Shown here: positions 1 through 55,242 of the stretch, in pieces | How positions within the stretch are numbered: the first letter of the stretch is position 1 | Layout of the letters: every line of letters starts with the position of its first letter | Assembly (NCBI GenBank): GCA_017304135.1 | Contig: JAFLBB010000016.1 | Location: 1-64,000 of the forward strand | Length of the DNA: 64,000 nucleotides | DNA from: Acidobacteriota bacterium | GTDB taxonomy: Bacteria; Acidobacteriota; Terriglobia; Bryobacterales; Bryobacteraceae | Reading direction: 5' to 3' | The notes under the pieces: generated by a model | Databases searched by the model: none | What the model saw: only the letters and a program-made list of their open reading frames with translations | What the model was told of the DNA's origin: nothing | Position numbers and translations under genes: made by a program

Positions 1-2
1 AC

Positions 3-98
3 CGCGCCGGAATCAGCAAATCCGCAATCGCCCGCCGCCTTGAGATCGGCCGCACCTCGGTGCGCCGGATTCTGGCGGCCGATTCCAACCAGAAATAG
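3..98 (+). CDS. Site-specific recombinase (resolvase), C-terminal end only
   Basis: The window opens inside a reading frame that ends with a TAG at 96-98. The 31 visible residues include GISKSAIARRLEIGRTSVRR, which is the helix-turn-helix (HTH_7 type) DNA-binding tail found at the C-terminus of serine resolvases/invertases. The catalytic N-terminal domain lies outside the window, so family and activity cannot be confirmed. A recombinase here suggests that mobile DNA lies to the left. An IS3/IS30-like helix-turn-helix protein would be an alternative, but the short terminal position of the HTH favours a resolvase. Confidence 0.6.
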   Translation, partial: RAGISKSAIARRLEIGRTSVRRILAADSNQK

Positions 99-204
99 GT
101 CCGCCCTGTGGTTCACGTAGCGCTCACTGCCTATCGACAACTACATGGGTGGATCCCTCCTCCACTGGTAATCCGCGCCATTGAGGCGCACTGAAATTCC
201 CGGG

Positions 205-12283: not shown

Positions 12284-14068
12284 TTACTTACCCAAATATC
12301 GAATCTCAAGAAAGAAAGGACTGATGGCGCGGCCGTCGGACCGTTGTCCGGTGAACGCCGCCTCAAGACGTGCGGGCCCCTTGTCCAACCGGGCGGCAAA
12401 CCGGACAGCATCGATGCCTGCGGCAATGGGAAGTTCCTCGTTCATACGGCCACAAGAGAGCTTCGCAACTCCCGCGCGAAGGTGGTGCGGCAGTGCGGGA
12501 GTGCCCAAGCGGGCGATCAATTCATAGCGGCCGTTGCGCGTCACTTCGACCTCCCAATAGCCGAAACCATCGGGCTCGGACTTCCAGTATGTCCTGGCGC
12601 GATCGAAATTCCAGGGCGCGGCGGGAGCGCCTGGGCCACGAAGCTCTTGCGGTGTCAGGATCACCGGATTCGAAGCCGGCGCTCCGAGCGGAATGCGAAC
12701 GGGGTTGCTCAGCGGAGCCGTGACATCGCGGTACCACGCCTCATATTCCCGTCTGAGCCGGCCTACCACGTCAGGATGATCCGGCGCGATGTTGGTCCGC
12801 TCTCCGGGATCGTGAGACATGTCGTAGAGTTCGGTTTCGCTTTCCGTGATGGCGCGCGTATAGGTTTGCTTCGGATCGGGCGCGGTCATCACGACTTTGT
12901 ATTGCTGCGTTCGCGCCGCGCAATGGGTGAAGAGCCTGGGCTCATCGATCCCGTTCGGGTCGGGGCGGCTTTGTTGAAAGAAGAGAGTGCGATCCGCCCA
13001 GTTGGTTGTGGAGCCTTGCAGTAGTGGCGCAAGGCTGCGGCCATCCAGCGCAGCTTTTACTGGTTTCACACCACACAATTCGAGGATGGTGGGCAGTACA
13101 TCGATGTGAGCGGCGATGCGATCGATGTCGACACCGGCGCGCAGACGGCCGGGCAGGCGCATGAAGAAGGGCACGCGAATGCCACCCTCGTAGACGCTGC
13201 CCTTCTGGTCACGCAATCCGGCGCTGTACCGGTTCAGCCCCCAGCCGCCGTTGTCGCTCATGAAGATGACCAGGGTGTTGTGTTCCAGATCCTGTTGTTT
13301 GAGGAACTGCAGCAGCCGGCCCACGTTTTCGTCCAGGTTTTCGATCATCCCGTAGACGCGGGCGGTTGAGTCATTCATGCCGGCCTTGCGGTAGTGCCCG
13401 CTATACTTTTCGTCGACCTGCAGCGGCCCGTGCGGCACATTGACCGGGAGGTAGACGAAGGCCGGCTTGCTGCTTTTCCGTTCCAGGAAGCGCATGGCTT
13501 CGGAGAAGAAGATATCGGTGCAATAGCCACGGGTCTGTTCGGGACGGCCATTGCGGAAGAAGACCGGATCGAAGTAGGTGTTGGGCGCCGGGTCACCGAT
13601 GCCGCCGATGGCGCCGTCGGTGAACACGAGCGTCTCCTCGAAACCCTGGTCCATGGCGCGCATGGGGAAGTGATCGCCCAGATGCCACTTCCCGAAGAGC
13701 GCGGTGCGGTAGCCGGCGGCGCGCAGCGCCTCGGCCATGGTGACTTCCTCCGGCCGCATTTGCGCCAGCCCGACCCAGGTATCGACGATGCCGGTGCGGT
13801 AGTTGTAGCGGCCCGTCATCAGGCTGGCGCGTGTGGGAGAGCACAGTGGGGAGGAATAGAAGTGGGTGAACCGTGTGCTCTGGCCATGCAACCGGTTGAG
13901 ATGGGGTGTGCGGATGACCTTGTTGCCGTGGCAGCCAAGGTCGCCGTAGCCCTGATCGTCGGTCAGGATGAGGACGACGTTGAGCCGCTCCTGTTTCGCC
14001 GTCAACGCGGATGCGCACGCCGCCGCGAGAAACGAGCGGCGAGTGGTTTGCGTCAACGGTGCGGACAT
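12284..14068 (-). CDS. Tat-exported sulfatase (arylsulfatase family S1)
   Basis: 594-residue sulfatase. The N-terminus has a twin-arginine signal (TTRRSFLAAACASALTA, RR at 10-11), indicating folded export. The formylglycine motif is C76-S-P-T-R80 in LCSPTRASLMTGR, so it is of the cysteine type and needs a formylglycine-generating enzyme, which is not in this window. Calcium ligands are present in LILTDDQGYGDLG, and later motifs GKWHLGD and MSDNGGWG fit. The C-terminal ~130 residues are an extra beta domain. The stop codon abuts the next gene, placing the sulfatase in the operon just after the TonB receptor, with 11 bases between them. It likely removes sulfate esters from the imported substrate. 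Confidence 0.92.
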   Translation of the reverse strand: MSAPLTQTTRRSFLAAACASALTAKQERLNVVLILTDDQGYGDLGCHGNKVIRTPHLNRLHGQSTRFTHFYSSPLCSPTRASLMTGRYNYRTGIVDTWVGLAQMRPEEVTMAEALRAAGYRTALFGKWHLGDHFPMRAMDQGFEETLVFTDGAIGGIGDPAPNTYFDPVFFRNGRPEQTRGYCTDIFFSEAMRFLERKSSKPAFVYLPVNVPHGPLQVDEKYSGHYRKAGMNDSTARVYGMIENLDENVGRLLQFLKQQDLEHNTLVIFMSDNGGWGLNRYSAGLRDQKGSVYEGGIRVPFFMRLPGRLRAGVDIDRIAAHIDVLPTILELCGVKPVKAALDGRSLAPLLQGSTTNWADRTLFFQQSRPDPNGIDEPRLFTHCAARTQQYKVVMTAPDPKQTYTRAITESETELYDMSHDPGERTNIAPDHPDVVGRLRREYEAWYRDVTAPLSNPVRIPLGAPASNPVILTPQELRGPGAPAAPWNFDRARTYWKSEPDGFGYWEVEVTRNGRYELIARLGTPALPHHLRAGVAKLSCGRMNEELPIAAGIDAVRFAARLDKGPARLEAAFTGQRSDGRAISPFFLEIRYLGK

Positions 14069-43761: not shown

Positions 43762-44898
43762 ATGCACAAGATTCTGATTCTGATCGATTGCCTCTCGAGC
43801 CTGGATGGCGGGGCGGAGAAATGCCTATTGCGCACGAGCGAGACCCTGGACCGGCGGCACTACGAAATGCAGATCGTCTCCTTCCGCGAGCCGCCGGAGC
43901 GCACGCATCTGCAGCGCTTCGGCTGCCCGGTGAAGGTGATTCACCTGCGCTCCTGTTTCGGCTTCGAGGCTATGCGGGCGGCGATCCAGCTACGCGGGCT
44001 GATCAAGCGGGAACCGATTTCAGTGGTGCACACTTTTTTTCCGACTTCGGATCTGTGGGGCGGCCTGGTGGCGCGGCTGAGCGGATGCCGGATTCTGATC
44101 TCCAGCCGCCGCGACATGGGGATTCTGAGGAGGCGGTTCCACCGGATTCTGTATCGCTTGTTGGGCGGGATGTTCGACCAGGTGCAGACGGTTTCCAGCG
44201 CGGTGCGTGCCGCCACCATTCGGGACGACCACCTGGATCCGGAACGGGTGATTGTGATTGCGAATGGGGTCCCCCTGCAACAGGTTTGGGCGCCCCAAGA
44301 GAAGAGCCAGTTGCGGGCACGGTACGGGTTTGGCGGCGACTCGCCGCTGCTGGTGTCGATCGGCAGCATCAAGCCCGTGAAGGGACTCGACATCCTGGTG
44401 CGTGCCGCGGCGCGGGTGTGCCGGGAGTTTCCCACGGCAACCTTTTTGATCCTCGGCCGCGTCGCCGAAACGGTGTACTTCGCTCAGGTCCAGGCACTCA
44501 TCGACGAGTTGGGCTTGCGCGGACATTTCCGGTTCCCGGGCGTGGCTGAGGACGTGTTTCCCATGCTTCGAATGTGCGATGTGTTTTGCCATCTGTCACG
44601 GAGTGAGGGATTTTCGAACGCCGTGCTGGAGGCGATGGCGTGCGGTTTGCCTTGCGTGGTGAGCGATGCGGGCGGCAATCCGGAGGCAGTGTCGGATGGA
44701 TGGAACGGATTCGTCGTTCCTCGCGAAGACGCCGACCAGGCCGCGGCGCGGATGATCGAGCTGCTCCGGTCGCCGAAGCGGGCCCTGGAGATGGGCACGA
44801 GGGGGAGTGAGTTTGTGCGAAGGCGGTTTACCACGGAAGGCATGGTCCGGCAGTTGACCGAGCAGTATGACCGATTACTGGCGGCGAAGGGAATGTGA
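43762..44898 (+). CDS. Glycosyltransferase family 4 protein, second copy
   Basis: 378 residues from ATG 43762, where the conserved sequence begins (MHKILILIDCLSSLDGGAEKCLLR). An in-frame ATG at 43681 would add 27 residues rich in Ala and Pro and is less likely; neither has a strong ribosome binding site. The GT-B donor domain shows LLVSIGSIKPVKGLDILVRAA, FLILGRVAE and the E-x7-E motif in RSEGFSNAVLEAMACGLPCVVSDAGGNPE. It likely adds a further residue to the repeat unit. About 100 bases separate it from the preceding deacetylase. Confidence 0.87.
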   Translation: MHKILILIDCLSSLDGGAEKCLLRTSETLDRRHYEMQIVSFREPPERTHLQRFGCPVKVIHLRSCFGFEAMRAAIQLRGLIKREPISVVHTFFPTSDLWGGLVARLSGCRILISSRRDMGILRRRFHRILYRLLGGMFDQVQTVSSAVRAATIRDDHLDPERVIVIANGVPLQQVWAPQEKSQLRARYGFGGDSPLLVSIGSIKPVKGLDILVRAAARVCREFPTATFLILGRVAETVYFAQVQALIDELGLRGHFRFPGVAEDVFPMLRMCDVFCHLSRSEGFSNAVLEAMACGLPCVVSDAGGNPEAVSDGWNGFVVPREDADQAAARMIELLRSPKRALEMGTRGSEFVRRRFTTEGMVRQLTEQYDRLLAAKGM

Positions 44899-44908
44899 GG
44901 GCCACAAG

Positions 44909-47527
44909 ATGGACCGTGCATGGCTATTCCTGGCGTTTCTGATGAGCACCGGCGTGCCGGCGTTAGCGGGCACGGCGCCGGTCCTCTATTTCTCCGATCT
45001 GGAGGGCGGACCCAACACCGGGGGAGAGAACAATCGGGGCGTATGGGTGACGGTGTATGGGAACCGGTTTGGCGCGAGCCGCGGTGACGCCTACGTCACG
45101 ATAGGAATGGGGCGGGCCGCGGCGTACGCTTCCTGGGCGGAGACAAAGGTCGTCTTCCAGATTGGAGCGGCGGCGACAAGCGGAAACATTGTCCTCACCC
45201 GAGGAGCGGCGGCTTCGAACGGCATCCCGTTCCAGGTGCGCGGGGGCAAGATTTATTTCGTGGCTGTGGACGGCTCGGACGGCAACAAGGGATCGTTCGA
45301 GTCGCCATGGCGGTCGCTCATCCAGGCGCGCAACCAGATGCAGCCGGGAGATGTGACCTATGCCAGAAACGGAGTCAGCCAGACGGAGACGGACGACTGG
45401 GCGGCTTCGATGCTGTTGCGGACGCAGTGGTGCAGCAGCGGGCTGCCGCGAGCCATTGTGGCTTACCCTGGCGCGACGGTCACGCTTGGCTCTGCACAGG
45501 GCGCCTATTATGGACTGCGGGGCGCGGACACCAGCGGAGGAGCGTGCCAGGGAGGGTGGGTGTTCGCGGGACTTCGCATGCGGGGCAGCGTGGGGGCGGC
45601 GACGATCATGGGTCCTTCCACGAACTGGCGGTTCGTGGGCAACGACATGAGTTGTCCGAATGGCGACGGGCCTACGGCGTGCTTTGCGGCAAGCCTCGCT
45701 TCGAACGTGAAGTTCCTCGGCAATCACGTGCACGAGGCCGGGAAGGCTACGGCCTCTGCGTTGTATCACGGCGTGTATTTCTCAACGGACAGCAACCATG
45801 TCGAGATGGGTTGGAACACGATCGAGAACATACGGGGATGCCGGGGCGTGCAGATCCACTCGACGCGGCTGCTGCCGGATACCGGCTACAACCAGTACGA
45901 CATCAGCATCCATGACAACGTGATTCACGACACGCAGTGCGACGGGGTGGTGGTGGCGACGGTGGATCCGTCCAAGGGCAGGGTGATCCTGTTCAACAAT
46001 GTGATCTACAACGCGGGCAAGGGACCGAACAATCCGGAGCGGACGGGCAACTGGTCGTGCGTGTACGTATCCGGGATGACGAACGCGGGAACGCCGGGAA
46101 GCGGTTTCGTGGAGTTGGACAGCAACACCATGTACAACTGCGGGTCGTTCGCCACGCCCCCCTACGACGGGGCCAACAGTGCGGTGAAGTATTCCGGGGG
46201 CAACGAGGCGTTGCGGCTCCGGCTGCGCAACAACCTTGTGTATCAGGTAAGCGGGGCGCCGTATTACCTGGGGCCCGCGGCCTCGCTCACCGGTTCGAAC
46301 AACCTGTTCCACGGCAGTGGAGCGGCGCCGGCGTCGTTGAGCGAATCGGTTAGCGGCGACCCCAAGCTGGCTGGTCCGGCACTGGGCGATTTCCATCTCA
46401 CGGCGGGGAGTCCGGCACGGCGGGCGGGCGTGGCGGCGGGTGTGGCCCAGGACCGCGAGGGGAATCCGCGCGCGCCGGGCGCCTACGACATCGGCGCGCA
46501 TCAGTATACCCCCCCGAGTGTCGCCGCGCTACGCTGTCTCCCCGAAATCATCTACACGCCGGGGGAGGCGGCCTGCACGATCACGCTGAGCGAGGCCGCG
46601 CCTGAGGCCGGGGCGGAGATCCCCCTGGTTTCAAGCGATGCGCGGTTGACGGTGCCGAGCACGGTTGCGTTTGCGCCGGGAAGCCAGGAAGCCATCATCC
46701 GGGCGCAAGCGCCCGCGGTGACGGCACGCGCCTCGGCGACGGTAGCCTCTGGTACGGAAGGAACGAGCCAGGAGTGCCGGCTGTGGCTGTTGCCGCCGGG
46801 TTCCCATACGCCAGTGTTGCTCGCGGTGATGCATGGGGCAAGTTATACGGCAGGGGCGGTGGCGCCGGGCGAAGTGGTGTCGCTGTTTGGCGACAACCTC
46901 GGGCCGAGTGAAGGGGCTGGCGCCCATTTGGGAACGGACGGCCGTGTGTCCACGGAGTTGCAGGGGACGCGTGTGTGGATGAACGGCATCACGGCTCCGC
47001 TGTTGTACGTGCAGGGCAGGCAGGTAAACGCGGTAGCGCCTTTTGCCTTGGAGAGCGCGGCGCTGGCGAGTGTGGAGGTGCAGTGGGGCGGTGAACGCTC
47101 CAACACGGTGACGCTGCCCGTGGCGACGGCAGCACCAGGCGTCTTCACGGGAGACTCCTCGGGCTTCGGCCAGGCGCTGGCGTGGCATGAGACGGGGACA
47201 CTCAACACGCCCTCGCATCCGGCGACACGAGCGGGCCTCCTGGCGTTCTACGCGACCGGATTGGGGCAGACCGAACCCGCGGGCATGGATGGCTGGCCAG
47301 GGCGCGAGCCCTACCCACAGCCGGTGGCGCAAGTCTCGGTGAGCATCGGTGGTTATGCATGTGAGGTTCTGTATGCGGGCGCCGCGCCGGGAATTGTGGC
47401 GGGTGTGCTGCAAGTGAATGTGCGCGTTCCGTCGATGGTCGAGCCCGGGCCGGCGGTGCCGCTGGTCATATACGCAGGCGAGGCAGCCTCGCGGGCAGGA
47501 GTGACCATCGCCGTGGAGTCTCCATGA
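44909..47527 (+). CDS. Secreted right-handed beta-helix protein with Solibacter-type C-terminal domain
   Basis: 872 residues from ATG 44909, opening with a signal peptide (MDRAWLFLAFLMSTGVPALAG). Residues ~20-105 form an IPT/TIG-like domain (LYFSDLEGGPNTGGENNRGV, VTVYGNRFGASRGDA). Residues ~110-540 form a parallel beta-helix of the pectate-lyase type, starting GKIYFVAVDGSDGNKGSFE and rich in N/G turn repeats (NHVEMGWNTIENIRG, NNVIYNAGKG). After a beta linker, residues ~634-870 are the acidobacterial TIGR03437-type domain (VMHGASYTAGAVAPGEVVSLFGDNL ... YAGAAPGIVAGVLQVNVRVP). It may bind or trim the polysaccharide. Its N-terminal half is paralogous to the inverted gene that follows. Confidence 0.82.
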   Translation: MDRAWLFLAFLMSTGVPALAGTAPVLYFSDLEGGPNTGGENNRGVWVTVYGNRFGASRGDAYVTIGMGRAAAYASWAETKVVFQIGAAATSGNIVLTRGAAASNGIPFQVRGGKIYFVAVDGSDGNKGSFESPWRSLIQARNQMQPGDVTYARNGVSQTETDDWAASMLLRTQWCSSGLPRAIVAYPGATVTLGSAQGAYYGLRGADTSGGACQGGWVFAGLRMRGSVGAATIMGPSTNWRFVGNDMSCPNGDGPTACFAASLASNVKFLGNHVHEAGKATASALYHGVYFSTDSNHVEMGWNTIENIRGCRGVQIHSTRLLPDTGYNQYDISIHDNVIHDTQCDGVVVATVDPSKGRVILFNNVIYNAGKGPNNPERTGNWSCVYVSGMTNAGTPGSGFVELDSNTMYNCGSFATPPYDGANSAVKYSGGNEALRLRLRNNLVYQVSGAPYYLGPAASLTGSNNLFHGSGAAPASLSESVSGDPKLAGPALGDFHLTAGSPARRAGVAAGVAQDREGNPRAPGAYDIGAHQYTPPSVAALRCLPEIIYTPGEAACTITLSEAAPEAGAEIPLVSSDARLTVPSTVAFAPGSQEAIIRAQAPAVTARASATVASGTEGTSQECRLWLLPPGSHTPVLLAVMHGASYTAGAVAPGEVVSLFGDNLGPSEGAGAHLGTDGRVSTELQGTRVWMNGITAPLLYVQGRQVNAVAPFALESAALASVEVQWGGERSNTVTLPVATAAPGVFTGDSSGFGQALAWHETGTLNTPSHPATRAGLLAFYATGLGQTEPAGMDGWPGREPYPQPVAQVSVSIGGYACEVLYAGAAPGIVAGVLQVNVRVPSMVEPGPAVPLVIYAGEAASRAGVTIAVESP

Positions 47528-47679: not shown

Positions 47680-50600
47680 CTATTTCACGGTGAACGGCGC
47701 GCTATAGGCAGCGGATGCGTAGCCAGAGTTGGTGACATAGCGCAATTCGTAAGTGCCCGGAGTGGAGGGAGCCTTGAGCGACATGGCGCCGCTGTTCTTC
47801 CAGAGGTAGCCATGCAGCAGCGCCTTGTCGGTGGGGGCGCCCACGAGATAGAGGCCGACCCAGTCACCGCTCCAGCCGGTGGGGCGTCCGCTCGGAGCTG
47901 TCCAGGAGACGTTGAACTGCTGGCCGGCGGCAACTGTGGTGACCGCGGACTGCACGCTGAATCCGGTTGTTCGCACGGCGAGGAGGGCGCTCCGCGCTGC
48001 CGCGCCGGTAACCCCGCCGCGGTAGTAGCGGAACTCGTACAGGCCGAGGTTGGCAGGCGTTTTGAAGGTTGCGGTTCCGGTGGTGGCGTATTTTGTCGAA
48101 ACCAGATTTACATACCACCAGTCGGGCGCGCCCACGGCGGTGAAGGTGATGTAGTCGCTCGGCGTATAGCTGGCGGACTTTGTCACGGAAGCAGACCAGG
48201 TCATGGTGATGGTTCCGTCTGCGGAGACCGTATAGGAGATGGTGGGCCCCAAACCGGTGGAGGCGGACGGATTCACCGTGAGGGTCGCACTGGCAGATTT
48301 TGTGGCGTCCGCCTTGGACGTGGCGGTCACGGTGACGGATTGCCTGGCGGACACGGTGGAGGGCGCGGTGTAGAGGCCAGTGGCGGAGATGGCCCCGACG
48401 GCCGCGCTGAGCTTCCAAGTGACTCCGGTGTCGGAGGCTCCGTTGACCTGAGCCAGGAATTGGAGGGTCTTGGCGGCCTCCACCGTCCCCACGGAGGGGC
48501 TCACCGAGATGCTCACGGCAACCACGGGCGGATTGATGGTGACGGTGGCGAGGGCCGACTTGGTGGGATCGGCGACCGAAGTGGCGATCACGGAAACCAC
48601 CTGCCTCACGGCCGTCGAAGCCGTAGCCGTATACAGCCCCGTGGAGGAGACGGAGCCGATCGCGGCGCTCAGTTTCCAGGTGACGGCTGTGTTGGCCGCC
48701 CCGCTGACCTGAGCGGTGAACTTGAAGGTCTGGCCGGGGGACAAAGACACCGAGGTGGGCTGAACGCTCACGCTGAGGGGCACCGCCGGGGGATTCAAAG
48801 TGATGACGGCGCTGGCCGACTTCGATGGATCGGCGGCCGAGGTTGCGGTGACAGTGACCGCCTGAGCGGCGCTGATCGTGGAGGGTGCGATGTAGAGGCC
48901 TGTCGAGGTGATCGTCCCCACGGCGGAACCGAGCTTCCAGGTGACAGCGGTGTTGGCACTGCCGGAGACGGCAGCGGTGAACTGCCGGGTTTGTCCCTGG
49001 TTGAGCGAGGCGGAGACCGGGTTGACGGTGATGCTCACCGGAACCGCGACGGGCTGGACGGTGACCTGAGCGGTCGCCGACTTCGTGGCATCGGCGCGCG
49101 AGGTGGCCGTGATCAGCACCGTTTGCGCAGCGGAAAGGGAAGACGGAGCCGTATAGAGGCCGGTATCAGAGATGGTTCCGAGTTGAGGACTCAGCGACCA
49201 GTCAACGGAGGCGTCCAGCGCGCCGCTGAGGGAAGCATTCAGTTGGATGGACTCTCCGGCTTCGACACTGCCGGTAGAGGGTGTCAGCGAGATGGAAATC
49301 TCTGGCGGCGCGACAACGCCGCCAATGGTGAACGCTCCCACGGGAATGCCCAGGGCCGGAGAAATCGCGGCTCCGTCGTAGTCCCAGGTGTGCGGCACCG
49401 AAGCGCCGGCGCCGAGGGCGGGGCTACCGTCCTGCAGGCGGAAGTCCTCTTGTGCCGCATCGACGAACAGGGGATTGCCTTGCAGGGAGCCGGTGCGGGT
49501 GATGGCGCCACCCGAGGTTGGCGCCGCTCCGCTCGGCGAATAGTAGAGATCGTTACTGGACTGAAGAGTGCCGCCGTAGTAAGAGGAGGCCCAAAAGAAC
49601 GGTTGTCCGCTGCGCGCGTAGAGGATGTTGTTGGTCAGAACCATCTTGCACTTGCAGTACTCCTGCACGAGAGGGACAGAGGCCGCGGCGGCTTGGTAGA
49701 AGGTGTTGTTGTAGAGGTAGCCCTCGGAGGCGCCGACGTTCATGAGCACGGCGCCGACGGTGGCGTCGGTGCTGTTGGCAAAGATGTTGTTGAAGACGTC
49801 GACGCGGCCGATGGGGTCGCTGTCGGCCATATAGATGAAGTTGGAGTTGCCGCCATGGAAGTAGTTGTCGTGAATGCGGATGTCCTTGGTGATGTTCGGC
49901 GAGGTCCCATGGGAGGAAACGAAGAGGGACGCGCCACGGTCCTTGGATGTCGGGCTGTCGATCTCATTCCAGCCGATGTCGATGTTTTGTGAGGGAGCGC
50001 CGAAGCCATCGAGCGTCTGGATGTAGAGGTCGTGCTTCATGCTGTCGTAGCCATTACGTGCGAAGAGGTTGCCGTAGATCACGTTCTCAGTGGAGTTTAC
50101 GGGTGTGAGCACACCGGCCCATAGTTGGGTGAGGTAGTCGTGCAGATGAAGGCCAACGTAGCGGTTGTAGTCACCCCACTGGGTGGTGAAGGCGCCCGAG
50201 CCTCCGGTTCCGGTCAATTTGGAGAAAGTGAAGTAGCTATTGCGGGCGAGGTTGGTCTGGAAGCCGTTGTGCCAGATGCGAGCGTTGCTGAGCACGGGCG
50301 TCTCACCGGGATAGGCGATCAGCGCTTTGCGCTTGGACGGTCCGCCGGCTCCTTTGGAGGAGGTGAAGGCGCCGTCGGAGTTGGTGTTGGTGTAGACGCC
50401 GCCGCGAACGTAAATGATGTACTGGCCATCGCCAGAGGTGTTTCGCGTGGGATCGAACATGAAGATGTCTTTGAACGGTCCGTTGGCGCCGGCGTCCTGG
50501 TTGGCGGAAAGCCCTGAGTTGGCGTTGTTGCCGTCATTGCCGGAGACGAAGTAGATCCTGCCGCTGGTGATGGTGAAGGGCAGTTCGTTAGAGGACACGC

Positions 50601-50955
50601 CGTCGACGTTCACCGAGATGCGGCAACTGCCGTCGGTCATGGAGCTATTCAGCCAGAACGTGATGCGTTCGAGTCCGCGGGCGGGGCCGAGGATGCCCCA
50701 CTCGGCATAGTCGGAGTCAGTGTTCAGTTGCACGCCACAGGCGGAAACGAAGTTAGCGCCCCGGCTGGCTCCGAGGTTCTTTCCCCAGATGGTGACGGCG
50801 GCACCCTGAGTGCTGGATTGCTCCCAACCCGCTTTCGGACCCCAGTCGAGGTCGGAAAAGAAGAGCCGCGGCGGCGGCGCTTGCGCGGAGAGCATGAGGG
50901 GAAGAGCGGCAGCGAGAGCGAGCCGCGCTGGCAGCGCCTGCAAGAGACTTGGCAT
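47680..50955 (-). CDS. Secreted beta-helix protein with four Ig-like repeats (inverted gene)
   Basis: 1091 residues, the only minus-strand gene in the polysaccharide locus. It has a signal peptide (LALAAALPLMLSAQA) and AAGGAG upstream of the ATG. The N-terminus (RLFFSDLDWGPKAGWEQSS, IWGKNLGASRGANFVSACG) mirrors the protein at 44909. Residues ~130-540 are a parallel beta-helix (GRIYFVSGNDGNNANSG onward, NIDIGWNEIDSP, IRIHDNYFHGGNS). Residues ~550-900 hold four Ig-like repeats of about 86 residues, and the rest a pair of similar domains (GLYEFRYYRGG, GTYELRYVTNSG). It is probably a large surface or extracellular protein acting on, or anchoring, the polymer. An 822-residue open frame on the other strand is a shadow. 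Confidence 0.85.
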   Translation of the reverse strand: MPSLLQALPARLALAAALPLMLSAQAPPPRLFFSDLDWGPKAGWEQSSTQGAAVTIWGKNLGASRGANFVSACGVQLNTDSDYAEWGILGPARGLERITFWLNSSMTDGSCRISVNVDGVSSNELPFTITSGRIYFVSGNDGNNANSGLSANQDAGANGPFKDIFMFDPTRNTSGDGQYIIYVRGGVYTNTNSDGAFTSSKGAGGPSKRKALIAYPGETPVLSNARIWHNGFQTNLARNSYFTFSKLTGTGGSGAFTTQWGDYNRYVGLHLHDYLTQLWAGVLTPVNSTENVIYGNLFARNGYDSMKHDLYIQTLDGFGAPSQNIDIGWNEIDSPTSKDRGASLFVSSHGTSPNITKDIRIHDNYFHGGNSNFIYMADSDPIGRVDVFNNIFANSTDATVGAVLMNVGASEGYLYNNTFYQAAAASVPLVQEYCKCKMVLTNNILYARSGQPFFWASSYYGGTLQSSNDLYYSPSGAAPTSGGAITRTGSLQGNPLFVDAAQEDFRLQDGSPALGAGASVPHTWDYDGAAISPALGIPVGAFTIGGVVAPPEISISLTPSTGSVEAGESIQLNASLSGALDASVDWSLSPQLGTISDTGLYTAPSSLSAAQTVLITATSRADATKSATAQVTVQPVAVPVSITVNPVSASLNQGQTRQFTAAVSGSANTAVTWKLGSAVGTITSTGLYIAPSTISAAQAVTVTATSAADPSKSASAVITLNPPAVPLSVSVQPTSVSLSPGQTFKFTAQVSGAANTAVTWKLSAAIGSVSSTGLYTATASTAVRQVVSVIATSVADPTKSALATVTINPPVVAVSISVSPSVGTVEAAKTLQFLAQVNGASDTGVTWKLSAAVGAISATGLYTAPSTVSARQSVTVTATSKADATKSASATLTVNPSASTGLGPTISYTVSADGTITMTWSASVTKSASYTPSDYITFTAVGAPDWWYVNLVSTKYATTGTATFKTPANLGLYEFRYYRGGVTGAAARSALLAVRTTGFSVQSAVTTVAAGQQFNVSWTAPSGRPTGWSGDWVGLYLVGAPTDKALLHGYLWKNSGAMSLKAPSTPGTYELRYVTNSGYASAAYSAPFTVK
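48256..49307 (-). repeat. Four tandem Ig-like repeats inside the inverted beta-helix gene
   Basis: Four imperfect units of about 86 residues (about 260 bases) follow one another. Each has the pattern VSVSP..G.VE/SL..GQT..F.A.VSG..NTAVTWKL, GTI/V.STGLYTAPS and TVTATS.AD.TKSASA.VT. Middle copies share the exact phrase NTAVTWKL. They are Big_2-like bacterial Ig folds used as rigid spacers in surface proteins. DNA identity between units makes this a likely site for copy-number change. Confidence 0.75.
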
Positions 50956-51718: not shown

Positions 51719-52525
51719 ATGACCATGCGGGCGGAAAGAAGCAGCGGCGAGGCGTTCCAGGAGGTGGTATGCCTCGAGTATCACGATGTCTCCGACCAGG
51801 CCGGGCCGCCGGGAGGAGCCCGGCTGTACCGTTTGGCGAGTCTGGAGTTCGAAGCCCATCTGCGATCGATTCAGGAGCGCCATTGCCACATCTGCCACCT
51901 GGGAGGCGGGTTGCCTGAGGCCAACGCCCGGCCGGTGTTGTTGACCTTCGACGATGGATTCCGTAGCGCTCTGGATACGATTGCCGGGGTGCTTGAGCGC
52001 TTCGGATGGCGCGGCCATTTCTTCATCGTGACGGATTGGATTGGGAAGGCAGGGTATCTGGACCGGAGCCAGATCCGGGAGTTGGCCGGAAGGGGGCACG
52101 TGATCGGCACTCACTCCTGCTCGCACCCGGAGAGGATGCCGGGCCTGGATGCGTCGCGCCTGGTGCGGGAGTGGTCAGAGAGCCGCGAGGTGCTGGCCGA
52201 GATCACCCGAGACGGTGTGAGAACGGGATCGGTGCCGAACGGCTACTATGACCGCGCGGTGGCGGAGGCGGCGGCGGAGGCCGGTCTGGAGACACTGTTC
52301 ACCTCGGAGCCGACGATGGCGGTGCGGAATGTGAATGGCTGCCTGGTGCGGGGGCGGTACACGCTAAAGCGCGGCATGAAGGCCGAAGTTTCGGGCGCGA
52401 TTGCATGTGGAGCGGGATGGCCCAGGGCGCGACAGTCCATCGCGTGGGGCGCCAGAAAGGTGCTGAAGGGCCTGCTCGGAGAAACATATATCAGCGTCAG
52501 GAAGCGCATCCTGCAGCACTACTGA
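51719..52525 (+). CDS. Polysaccharide deacetylase family protein, third copy
   Basis: 268 residues. CE4/NodB signals: CLEYHDVSD at the N-terminus, motif 1 VLLTFDDGFRSALDT, a GWRGHFFIVTDWIGKAGYLD strand, motif 2 GTHSCSHPERM and motif 3-like TGSVPNGYYDRAVAEAA. It has no signal peptide. It stands first in the 3' part of the locus, after the insertion-sequence remnant, and about 55 bases ahead of the HprK-like kinase gene. Likely role: removal of acetyl from an amino sugar of the polymer or of its lipid-linked precursor. Confidence 0.86.
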   Translation: MTMRAERSSGEAFQEVVCLEYHDVSDQAGPPGGARLYRLASLEFEAHLRSIQERHCHICHLGGGLPEANARPVLLTFDDGFRSALDTIAGVLERFGWRGHFFIVTDWIGKAGYLDRSQIRELAGRGHVIGTHSCSHPERMPGLDASRLVREWSESREVLAEITRDGVRTGSVPNGYYDRAVAEAAAEAGLETLFTSEPTMAVRNVNGCLVRGRYTLKRGMKAEVSGAIACGAGWPRARQSIAWGARKVLKGLLGETYISVRKRILQHY

Positions 52526-52579
52526 CCGGCTGCCCGCGGGAGAGGGGGAGGCGCGGAAGTCATCGAAGGAGGGATCGTG

Positions 52580-53524
52580 ATGAACGAGGCGAGACGAGCA
52601 TCGAACCTGAGCGTGGCAAGAGAGTTTCGGGACAGCTCCCAGGGCCGTATCGGAGCGTGGCGGAGGGTGTTCCGCGGCCACGGGTTGAACATCGCCGTCC
52701 AATCGAATGACCGGACAGTATTGGATGCGCTGGCGCTGGACACCGTGCCCGGGCTTGTGCCGGCGGATGGGGAGTCACCAGACCTCAAATACACCGTACA
52801 GGTGAGTTGTTCCGGCGGCTGGCCGCGATGCGATGTGTACTTGGGGACGCGCAAGATCGCGGAGGGGATGGAGGTCCTGCAAACGCCTGGTTTTGTGCAG
52901 TCGCATGTGGAGTCGACCGTGGCGAGCGCTGCGCCAACCGAAGTATTTGTGCACGCTGGAGCAGTGGCGTGGAATGGAAGACTGATCCTGCTGCCGGGTA
53001 GGAGTTATTCGGGCAAGACCACGCTGGTGAGGGAGTTCCTCAGCCGCGGCGCAACCTATTACTCCGACGAATTCGCGGTCGTCGATTTCAGCGGGCGGAT
53101 TCATGCCTACCCGAGGCCGTTGAACCTGCGGAGCGGGGACTGGTTGACAGACCCCGAACGCGCCGCGGGAGGCGAAGTGGCGTCCAGCCGAGCCGGGCAC
53201 CGGGCGATGGAGTCCGGGTGTGCCTGCGACAAGCGGGTGTGGAAGATGGGGGTGCATCCGGTGCGGCCCGACTTGGTGGTGTTTGCGAGCTATCAGCCGG
53301 CGGGACGCTGGCGTGCCGAACGTCTTACGCCGGGATGCACGGCGCTGGAACTGATGGCCAACACGGTGGCTGCCCGGAGCCGTACGAAGTTTGCCTTGCA
53401 TTGCCTTAAGGAGATTGCACAGCGGGTCACGGCCTACAGGACGGTCCGAGGCGAGGCCGTCACGGCGGCCGATCACGTTCTGAGTCTCCTTGCAGGCGTT
53501 CACGATTCCAAACCGAACAATTGA
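52580..53524 (+). CDS. HprK-related serine kinase (HPr kinase/phosphorylase-like)
   Basis: 314 residues from ATG 52580, preceded by AAGGAGGG at good spacing (a GTG at 52577 is in frame). The core is VFVHAGAVAWNGRLILLPGR followed by the P-loop GRSYSGKTTLV, then YYSDEFAVVDFSGRIHAYPRPLNLR, the arrangement of HprK-related kinases linked with PqqD proteins. True HprK has an N-terminal DRTGG-type domain, which is not recognised here. Related kinases phosphorylate lasso peptides. It is followed within 9 bases by a PqqD-type gene and then a nucleotidyltransferase gene, so the three probably act together. The substrate is unknown. Confidence 0.82.
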   Translation: MNEARRASNLSVAREFRDSSQGRIGAWRRVFRGHGLNIAVQSNDRTVLDALALDTVPGLVPADGESPDLKYTVQVSCSGGWPRCDVYLGTRKIAEGMEVLQTPGFVQSHVESTVASAAPTEVFVHAGAVAWNGRLILLPGRSYSGKTTLVREFLSRGATYYSDEFAVVDFSGRIHAYPRPLNLRSGDWLTDPERAAGGEVASSRAGHRAMESGCACDKRVWKMGVHPVRPDLVVFASYQPAGRWRAERLTPGCTALELMANTVAARSRTKFALHCLKEIAQRVTAYRTVRGEAVTAADHVLSLLAGVHDSKPNN

Positions 53525-53533
53525 AGGAGGACT

Positions 53534-53989
53534 ATGAACCCGATTGCACGAAGGGACGACTTATCGATCGAGACGTTTCCGCAGGAGACGGTGGTGTACG
53601 ATCACCGGACTCACAAGGTGCACTGCCTGAGTCTGGCAGCGGCGACCGTGTGGCATTGTTGCGATGGGGAGACGCCGCTTCAGGAGATCCCGCACCGCTT
53701 GGCCTCCCATTTCGACTTGCCGCCTGACGAGGCGGTGACTAGAGCGGCTCTGATGCAATTGTACGCCGCGGATCTGTTGGAGCCGAATACATTTGAGCCG
53801 GACGGACGGCCGCTACCCTCACGGCGGGAACTGGCCCGGAGACTGCAGACGGCCGCAGCGGTCATGCTGCCGTTTGTCATGACGATGACGGCCCCGACAC
53901 CGGCGGCGGCACAGTCAAACAACAATCGCCCACCGCCGCCCCAGCCGAAGCCGCCACGGTACGGCAAGCCGCCGCGCAGAGGGCGCTGA
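53534..53989 (+). CDS. PqqD/RRE-domain protein with Tat-like segment and proline-rich C-terminal tail
   Basis: 151 residues, ATG after GGAGG at 53526-53530. Residues ~5-90 form a PqqD-like peptide-recognition domain (VVYDHRTHKVHCLSLAAATVW, CDGETPLQEI, LMQLYAADLLE). Unusually, the protein continues with SRRELARRL (96-104), a hydrophobic stretch (105-120) and an A-x-A site (PAAAQS, cut point about 126/127), which together look like an internal Tat signal. The final ~25 residues are proline- and Arg/Lys-rich (RPPPPQPKPPRYGKPPRRGR). The peptide-binding domain and its possible peptide cargo would thus be one polypeptide. PqqD proteins normally bind a separate precursor peptide. Function unknown. 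Confidence 0.82.
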   Translation: MNPIARRDDLSIETFPQETVVYDHRTHKVHCLSLAAATVWHCCDGETPLQEIPHRLASHFDLPPDEAVTRAALMQLYAADLLEPNTFEPDGRPLPSRRELARRLQTAAAVMLPFVMTMTAPTPAAAQSNNNRPPPPQPKPPRYGKPPRRGR

Positions 53990-54018: not shown

Positions 54019-55242
54019 ATGAGCAAAACCCTACTTTTGCGGCTGGTCCGCGAAAGCGCCCCTGGTCCGACGGGTCGATTCCATAGCGAATACGGCTGGC
54101 CCCCGGAGGAGAGGGAGTGTGTGCTTGAGGAGGCTCTGCGGCATGGTGTTCTCGGCAGGATCTGGAAACAGCAGGGGGATCGACTGAGGACGGTGTTCTC
54201 ACCTTCGACAACCCGGCGGTGGCGGCACGCAATGCGCTGCCTGGCGGCTCGTAATCTTGCATCCTGCGATGAACTTCTCCGCGTCGTCCAGACGTTGCGG
54301 CACGAGGGCATCCGGGCCCTTCCCGTAAAGGGCCCGGCGCTGGCGGTGGCCCTCAGCGGCTCACCTTGCTCGCGAGACTATGCCGACGTCGATCTGCTCG
54401 TGGACCGTGCCGAAGCCACACCGGCGCTGGAGATCCTCCGCGCCGCGGGCTACAGGGACGCACAGACGGGCGCCTGCACGGCAGCCGGCGATCAGGTGGC
54501 GCTCACGCACCCGGACGGGACCATGGTGCTTGAGCTGCAGTGGGATCTGGGTCGGCGCTGGAATCTGCGGTCGTGTGCCGGGGAGCCGCCGTTTGTCTTT
54601 GGAGAGCTGTGGCAGAGACGGACGGCCGTGCCGTTCGGGAGTGCGGAGCTGCCCTCGCTGGCTGGAGAGGACCAGTTCCTTCTCCTTTCGGTGCACGGGG
54701 CAAGGCATTGTTGGAGAAGGCTGCTCTGGGTGTGCGACGCGGCCGATGCGGTGTCGGCGTGGCCGCAGATGGATTGGGACTTCGTGTTCGTTCAGGCCGA
54801 ACGCCTTCGATGCATTCGCCGGGTTTGCCTTGCGTTTCAGCTGAGCTCCGATGTGCTGGGAGCGCCGATCCCCGAGTTCGCTCAGCGAAGGATCAGCCGG
54901 GACGCGCGCATACCGCGCATCGCCCGCGGCATCGTCCGCCGTTGGGATGAACCCGCTCCACCGGAATGGCGCGCCGATCTCAGCGACCTCGGCTTCACAC
55001 TCTCCTCACTGGATGAGTGGCGCGACCGAGCAGGATTGGGAGGCCGGGCGTTGTGGGCATGGTTCCGGCCGAATGGGCGCGACCATGCCTTGGTGGCACT
55101 GCCGGCGTGGGCAGCGCCTGTCTACTATGCAATCCGGCCATTCCGGCTGGCCTGGCGCTACGGCCCGGAGGCGATGCAGGCATGGTTGGGATTCGCTTCA
55201 AGGGCGGAGGAGGACTCTGGTGACACAGCAATTCGCTTCTGA
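54019..55242 (+). CDS. Nucleotidyltransferase family protein of the HprK/PqqD cassette
   Basis: 407 residues. It resembles the uncharacterised nucleotidyltransferases (NTP_transf_5) found with HprK-like kinases and PqqD proteins: GIRALPVKGPALAVALSG, RDYADVDLLVDRAEATPALEIL (metal-binding DvDlLv), HPDGTMVLELQWDL and LLSVHGARHCWRRLLWVCDAADAV. In lasso-peptide clusters a nucleotidyltransferase works with the kinase on the peptide; here no lasso cyclase or leader protease is present. Starts 30 bases after the PqqD gene; its 3' end overlaps the next gene by 23 bases. Confidence 0.8.
   Translation: MSKTLLLRLVRESAPGPTGRFHSEYGWPPEERECVLEEALRHGVLGRIWKQQGDRLRTVFSPSTTRRWRHAMRCLAARNLASCDELLRVVQTLRHEGIRALPVKGPALAVALSGSPCSRDYADVDLLVDRAEATPALEILRAAGYRDAQTGACTAAGDQVALTHPDGTMVLELQWDLGRRWNLRSCAGEPPFVFGELWQRRTAVPFGSAELPSLAGEDQFLLLSVHGARHCWRRLLWVCDAADAVSAWPQMDWDFVFVQAERLRCIRRVCLAFQLSSDVLGAPIPEFAQRRISRDARIPRIARGIVRRWDEPAPPEWRADLSDLGFTLSSLDEWRDRAGLGGRALWAWFRPNGRDHALVALPAWAAPVYYAIRPFRLAWRYGPEAMQAWLGFASRAEEDSGDTAIRF

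Follow-up and report, generated by a model that had tools for sequence, protein, structure and literature searches.

PqqD-type domains (RREs), which grip the leaders of precursor peptides, are described as discrete proteins or parts of modifying enzymes and usually act in trans, according to the part of the RRE-Finder report used here (PMC7470986). The window analysed here, a stretch of 64,000 nucleotides on contig C57 of a 6.49 Mb acidobacterial genome (97% complete), holds a gene in which such a domain continues in the same chain into a Tat-like segment and a cationic tail, and it raises the question whether this protein serves other substrates or is itself the precursor of a modified and secreted peptide. 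A sequence-only reading of the window had proposed the latter, with the tail being modified by the neighbouring kinase and nucleotidyltransferase and then exported. In a search of the full-text literature, in which few preprints and subscription journals were covered, we found no title or abstract describing a Tat-type precursor joined in one chain to its own RRE. Here, we follow up the proposal by homologue searches, gene neighbourhoods, structure prediction and comparison with known systems, and we lean towards a precursor resembling those of the linear polyphosphorylated peptides of Bacillota (LPPs; as covered in the part of PMC13381572 used here), with its RRE fused in cis, export by Tat and an ordinary signal-peptidase cut.

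Layout of the window protein and its homologues

The gene lies at 53534..53989 on the forward strand, with an aaggagg ribosome-binding site immediately 5' of its ATG, and its translation agrees with the layout first proposed, i.e. a single chain of 151 residues with a PqqD domain, an SRR, hydrophobic and AxA element and a terminal tail. Residues 1-90 (53534..53803, +) make up the PqqD/RRE domain, of which PF05402 spans residues 18-80 (29.1 bits, cut-off 23.4). These are followed by S96-R97-R98 (53819..53827, +), a leader-like segment with P113 and V115 at residues 110-119 (53861..53890, +), and A124-A126 (AAA; 53903..53911, +), a predicted signal-peptidase site with its cut at 126/127. The tail Q127-R151 (53912..53986, +), QSNNNRPPPPQPKPPRYGKPPRRGR, is the predicted mature peptide of 25 residues, rich in Pro, Arg and Lys; it matched no Pfam family, and an Rfam scan of the window gave no match. 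The twin Arg, A124-A126 and the tail were confirmed by residue position.

A single-sequence search gave a match in eight of 61 near genomes, its own genome counted, and found no relative on the named genome contigs. With alignment A1, 19 of the 237 genomes from the family and 67 of 396 sampled from the phylum gave a match, weak and discrete PqqDs included. The named genome contigs were scanned with alignment A3, as A2 proved too diverse as a query, using peptide patterns that sit within the PqqD domain. This yielded 61 loci, mostly from Acidobacteriota (Blastocatellia, Pyrinomonadaceae, Bryobacteraceae, Vicinamibacteria), and also from metagenome-assembled genomes labelled Gemmatimonadetes, Methylomirabilota, Chloroflexi and Actinomycetota; genes were called as the longest open frame, with no gene finder. 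A1 and A3 include the C-terminal half and therefore bias the searches toward fused relatives; in the named-contig scan, 60 of the 61 loci had a PqqD open reading frame (ORF) by model, and an intact PqqD ORF lacking RR occurred in none.

Of the 125 distinct homologues pooled, 114 combine RR with a hydrophobic stretch, and all but two of these (112) also have an AxA-like site, so the layout exceeds chance. The 11 left aside comprise seven discrete short PqqDs, one long fusion of another kind and three damaged or contig-edge copies, in two of which SRR is still visible. R97 and R98 are invariant across the 63 rows of alignment A4. Because the homologues share descent and their counts are not independent, clustered counts were used (72 clusters at 60% identity and 29 at 45%). 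The architecture is real and widespread, extending over Acidobacteriota and other phyla.

The expectation that SRR, the hydrophobic stretch and AxA would be kept beside HprK-like kinases while the tails vary was borne out by the homologue comparison. In a sample of 70 sequences out of the 114, pairs at 60-69% domain identity had leaders that were on average 0.70 identical and tails that were 0.38 identical, and on the same measure tail identity was 0.31-0.32 in the most distant pairs. The homologue tails are mostly Cys-rich and sometimes Pro/basic, the latter, window-like kind being found also in L059, L061, L062 and L185. Over the 72 tail clusters (60% domain identity), the number of Cys was even and nonzero in 55, odd in 6 and zero in 11; an even count in 55 of the 61 Cys-containing clustered tails is as expected of exported disulfide peptides. 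The C-C-CC-C-C framework of cystine knots (knottins) occurs in 16 of 95 tails with at least four Cys, and a few weak Pfam matches link Cys-rich homologues to cystine-knot families; the window tail has no Cys. Tails of about 95-150 residues are carried by the fused PqqD proteins of L007, L018, L019, L022 and L027. Those of L022 and L027 include a long stretch of Thr, several of the five begin with a sequence like GAGSG or AGSG directly behind AxA, and some long tails resemble Ig/IPT-type domains by eye.

The conserved extension also bears on the reading that the protein is an ordinary HPr-rel-A PqqD chaperone with a meaningless C-terminal addition. In HPr-rel-A systems (TIGR04353/TIGR04352), PqqD-like and HprK-like genes adjoin, as they do here, the neighbours resemble that system, and the window protein scores best with TIGR04353 among the NCBIfam models. 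The 28.8 bits reached nevertheless fall short of the cut-off of 35, the flanking kinase reaches 54 bits against the HprK_rel_A (TIGR04352) cut-off of 200, and the 74 positions of the TIGR04353 model include no tail. With the layout of the extension being conserved, this reading is largely contradicted and we regard it as highly improbable.

The kinase and nucleotidyltransferase cassette

Directly upstream, with a gap of 9 nt between its stop and the precursor gene, lies an HprK-like kinase (52577..53524, +), which keeps H126, K147, D164 and D170 and whose best PDB relative by sequence is HPr kinase 1ko7 (E 0.0067). The kinases of the family retain His126, Lys147 of the P-loop and Asp164, and mostly Asp170. 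Downstream, a nucleotidyltransferase-like protein of the NTP_transf_5 type (NT; 54019..55242, +; PF14907, 145 bits), which begins 29 nt past the precursor stop, keeps K104, G105, R119, D123 and D125. The next gene upstream of the kinase encodes a polysaccharide deacetylase (51719..52525, +; PF01522) and belongs to a polysaccharide locus surrounding the cassette, with Poly_export, Wzz, Wzy_C, a DegT aminotransferase and a glycosyltransferase farther upstream, and with deacetylases, GNAT, MBOAT and an AlgX-like protein. Shortly upstream of the cassette, opposite strands encode two large proteins in which beta-helix/TIG and Ig-like domains occur (44867-47527, +; 47680-50955, -), and a second, weaker HprK-like match is present in the window's own genome (G000:C344:14129-14953, E 4.3e-13). 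In homologous loci, a Glycos_transf_4 protein (PF00953; 13 of 89 neighbour ORFs, e.g. L074 8273-9286) is often encoded next to the cassette, immediately ahead of the kinase, while the downstream TsaD-like (11 of 89) and GNAT-like (9 of 89) ORFs look like housekeeping synteny.

Of 61 loci picked from the A1 matches in family and phylum, some of which share one genome, 40 have the fused protein along with both kinase and NT; seven have only the NT, seven only the kinase and seven neither. All three genes were likewise present at 41 of the 61 named loci, whose contigs overlap partly with the former set. The order kinase-precursor-NT on one strand was found for 32 of 40 precursors.

Nine loci carry two or three fused copies. 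The tandem copies of L077 share 0.89 identity in the domain and 0.42 in the tail, and L072 has three tandem copies that differ in their tails; its 14 kb include no kinase, the single kinase match of its genome (G456) being on another contig. Among the nine multi-precursor genomes of those searched, G335, G269, G518, G640, G463 and G191 likewise have one kinase match, G448 has two and G502 three; in G518 and G640, as in G456, the kinase and the precursors are on different contigs. A kinase match was found in 15 of the 16 genomes searched, even where it is not adjacent, with none in G184, a genome with a split system. That tandem copies differ in their tails, and that several precursors often come with a single kinase, favours a precursor over a chaperone acting in trans, and the protein is in our judgement very probably a precursor.

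LPP systems share this organisation in several respects, as described in the sections of PMC13381572 used here: an RRE, an HprK-like kinase and an NTP transferase stand within polysaccharide loci, the precursors are conserved in their N-terminal part and variable at the C terminus, and a cluster holds up to three of them. The LPP RRE is the discrete LppB in those sections, whereas 114 of the 125 homologues have an RRE that forms one chain with the precursor, and discrete RREs are confined to distant relatives. Among the latter are two loci where the RRE and a Tat-like peptide seem to be encoded by separate genes. In L098, a discrete PqqD is followed by a gene for a Tat-like Cys/Pro-rich peptide, the locus reaching the contig end, and in L179 a discrete PqqD is divergent from a Tat-like Thr/Pro-rich frame; L179 is the less certain case, as an antisense frame of similar length overlaps its Tat-like frame. 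Counted by eye, the distance from RR to Pro is 16 in both, which is also the commonest among the fused proteins (71 of 114).

A different cassette is present in the same phylum at L182 (6009-11295), L184 (7231-11057) and L194 (10048-11510), where a discrete PqqD accompanies a radical SAM/SPASM protein, joined in L182 and L184 by the NT and by a protein with weak resemblance to HprK or PEPCK, and in L182 by an S24-like peptidase. This type has the appearance of a radical-SAM RiPP cluster with phosphorylation.

The middle segment as a probable leader and the candidate phosphosite

As modelled with AlphaFold (mean pLDDT 86.6, pTM 0.73), the window protein has strands at 10-14, 18-23 and 28-33 in the PqqD domain and an additional one at 115-119 (block mean pLDDT 85), and the model of the Cys-tailed L118 protein has a strand at 114-118. 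The nearest folds by VIA-align are the lasso RREs TbiB1 5v1v (Z 9.8, rmsd 2.1, 86 aligned) and 6jx3 (Z 9.2, rmsd 2.3, 83 aligned), both crystallised with their leaders, and 5v1v is also the top Foldseek match (E 3.6e-3). VIA-align further lists 4wd9_A (NisB with the NisA leader), given by its range ends only (1..122 on the model, up to 1020 on the chain); the high residue numbers, if they are the leader, would presumably fit an extra strand on a bound leader, and we do not count them as evidence. The RRE fold and the extra strand are thus model predictions, by which the middle segment looks like an RRE-binding leader as well. That this leader docks in cis on its own RRE appears fairly likely, given the predicted strand and the LPP-like spacing described below. 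The earlier view of the middle as a Tat-like element holds for its conserved layout of RR, hydrophobic stretch and AxA, but the segment is not solely Tat-like, having also the spacing of an RRE leader and a predicted strand.

An alternative is that the protein is a membrane-anchored RRE scaffold, with the hydrophobic stretch as its C-terminal anchor, the tail staying attached outside and the PqqD domain presenting some other, unlinked substrate to kinase and NT. The usual action of PqqD domains in trans (in the part of RRE-Finder used here) would suit this, as would the hydrophobicity of the middle stretch, where the 15-residue hydropathy is mostly near 2. Both models, however, give a strand and not a long helix, nearly all homologues keep an AxA-like site (112 of 114), tails differ between tandem copies, several precursors often share a kinase, and at two loci the Tat-like peptide is its own gene next to a discrete RRE, all of which makes an anchored scaffold unlikely.

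For the precursor reading, positions were counted from the first Pro lying 10 or more residues beyond RR, which is Pro113 in the window protein. In the 114 homologues, Pro+2 is V/I in 106, Pro+5 is L/I in 100, Pro+8 is Pro in 100 and Pro+13 is Ala in 82, and Pro-3 is V/I/A/L/M in 109, where LPP and lasso leaders have Tyr/Trp. Ser or Thr occupies Pro+15 in 79 of the 114 (Ser 45, Thr 34, neither 35), with Ser128 (53915..53917, +) in the window. By clusters, Ser/Thr is found there in 55 of 72 against a background of 0.196, and in 22 of 29 against 0.203. In the sections of PMC13381572 used here, the LPP precursor consensus is YxxPxVLxHQxIxFETxxS, of which the residues just after Pro pair with the RRE; LppK, an HprK-like enzyme, phosphorylates residue 3 of a core that starts with AQS, and this S3 falls at Pro+15 when counted along the consensus. 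The PxV leader core and the Ser at Pro+15 are thereby shared with LPPs, and A126-Q127-S128 of the window aligns with AQS, its predicted cut being one residue later than that of LPPs. We do not file the family as LPP, because the Tyr of YxxP is missing (YxxPxV itself is not found, though Pro and V/I are present) and because Thr, which LppK does not accept in place of Ser in the same sections, is common at Pro+15. LPPs are in addition described there from Bacillota, whereas the window family resides in other phyla.

Other candidate sites were weighed. Conservation of Ser/Thr is higher at Pro+4 (99 of 114), a rival phosphosite; Pro+15 was preferred since Pro+4 would be lost on cleavage. When anchored on AxA, Ser/Thr at +2 was counted in 65 of 114, where shuffled tails predict 23.0 +/- 4.2, and in 21 of 68 ordinary predicted signal peptides from the same loci (Fisher p 7e-4 against the homologues), so part of this signal is generic; the count was replaced by the Pro-anchored one as the AxA caller had misplaced some sites. 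A C-terminal Ser, the site in phosphorylated lasso peptides, was rejected, as only 2 of 64 rows have tails ending in Ser and the window tail ends in Arg. Of the proposed modification of the tail by kinase and NT, what emerges is a changed location, the best-placed candidate being Ser128 just after AxA and not the Pro/Arg/Lys run. By analogy with LPPs, we give Ser128 an even chance of being the phosphorylated residue.

Lasso peptides of the paeninodin/pseudomycoidin type also come with an HprK-like kinase with a His-Lys-Asp-Asp set and with a nucleotidyltransferase homologue that is linked to a hexose on the phosphate, as stated in the part of PMC9266682 used here. There, the phosphate is on the C-terminal Ser, as opposed to the predicted Ser128, and a macrolactam synthetase makes the lasso after B2 cleavage; neither a lasso cyclase (macrolactam synthetase) nor a B2 protease was found among the listed neighbour families of the present cassettes (25 of the 103 families matched by 89 neighbour ORFs drawn from 306, each unlisted family matching at most one ORF).

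Proposed export and mechanism, and significance

Tat signals consist of (S/T)RR, a moderately hydrophobic stretch and AxA, and are normally N-terminal. The window protein and its homologues show the same twin Arg, hydrophobic stretch and AxA internally, after a folded domain of 90 residues; for comparison, a frame at 12284-14068 (-) of the window has the ordinary form, a classical N-terminal Tat-like start (TTRRSFLAAACASALTA). Models of TAT signals match the family weakly (TIGR01409 in 7 of 46 members and TIGR02811 in 10 of 46, E <= 0.1) and did not match the window protein at E <= 1. TatC, part of a common system, was found in 48 of 49 carrier genomes, with no match in G096. LPP clusters include a pump, LppD, and a SipW-like peptidase, LppS, that makes the cut, and twin Arg and AxA have no mention for LPP leaders in the sections of PMC13381572 used here. 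Among the same listed neighbour families (25 of 103) we found no pump (ABC, MsbA-like) and no S26/SipW-like peptidase, and with RR and AxA kept, the simplest reading is that Tat and an ordinary signal peptidase stand in for LppD and LppS. Judging by these motifs, export of the predicted precursor by Tat is likely, a route that would suit a chain needing modification in the cytoplasm first.

The same observations could be explained by a Tat-exported disulfide or Pro-rich mini-protein for which the PqqD domain is a proofreading chaperone in cis, with the kinase and NT acting elsewhere in the polysaccharide locus. This is consistent with the invariant RR, the presence of TatC in nearly all carrier genomes and the seven of 61 loci where kinase and NT are both missing from the fetched stretch. 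Against this, the two enzymes accompany the precursor across phyla, the kinase is matched in nearly all genomes tested even when non-adjacent, and Ser/Thr at Pro+15 has the spacing of the LPP phosphosite; we consider such a mini-protein quite unlikely.

The LPP-like precursor reading, to which we give somewhat better than even credence, would work as follows. The N-terminal PqqD domain would serve as an RRE and grip the leader of its own chain at residues ~110-120, with the motif hydrophobic-xxPx[VI]x[ST][IL], which would add a fourth strand. With the leader so docked, Ser128, 15 residues past the anchor Pro113, would be presented for (poly)phosphorylation to the HprK-like kinase encoded next door, and the NTP_transf_5 protein would then attach a sugar or a nucleotide-linked group to the phosphate, a chemistry that we propose tentatively and hold at rather less than even. 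R97-R98 and the same hydrophobic stretch would next be read by Tat and the chain exported, whereupon signal peptidase would cut after A126 and release a phosphorylated, cationic, Pro-rich peptide of 25 residues. Once released, the peptide would probably have its role within, or together with, the surface polysaccharide produced by the surrounding locus.

An RRE fused to its own substrate and joined to Tat export would, if true, represent a minimal logic for producing modified secreted peptides, and could explain LPP-like products in soil phyla without the pump and peptidase of Bacillota. The reading singles out one residue (S128) and one cut (126/127), and the analysis provides a search motif that is independent of the variable tail. 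Further, a separate class of ribosomal peptides, to which we assign slightly less than an even chance, may be represented here, with the recognition domain being the N-terminus of the precursor and any tail, be it Pro/Arg-rich, cystine-knot-like, made of Thr repeats or an entire small domain, being phosphorylated, decorated and exported by Tat. If this is true, the family would constitute a three-gene cassette for modification followed by export, spread over Acidobacteriota and other phyla.
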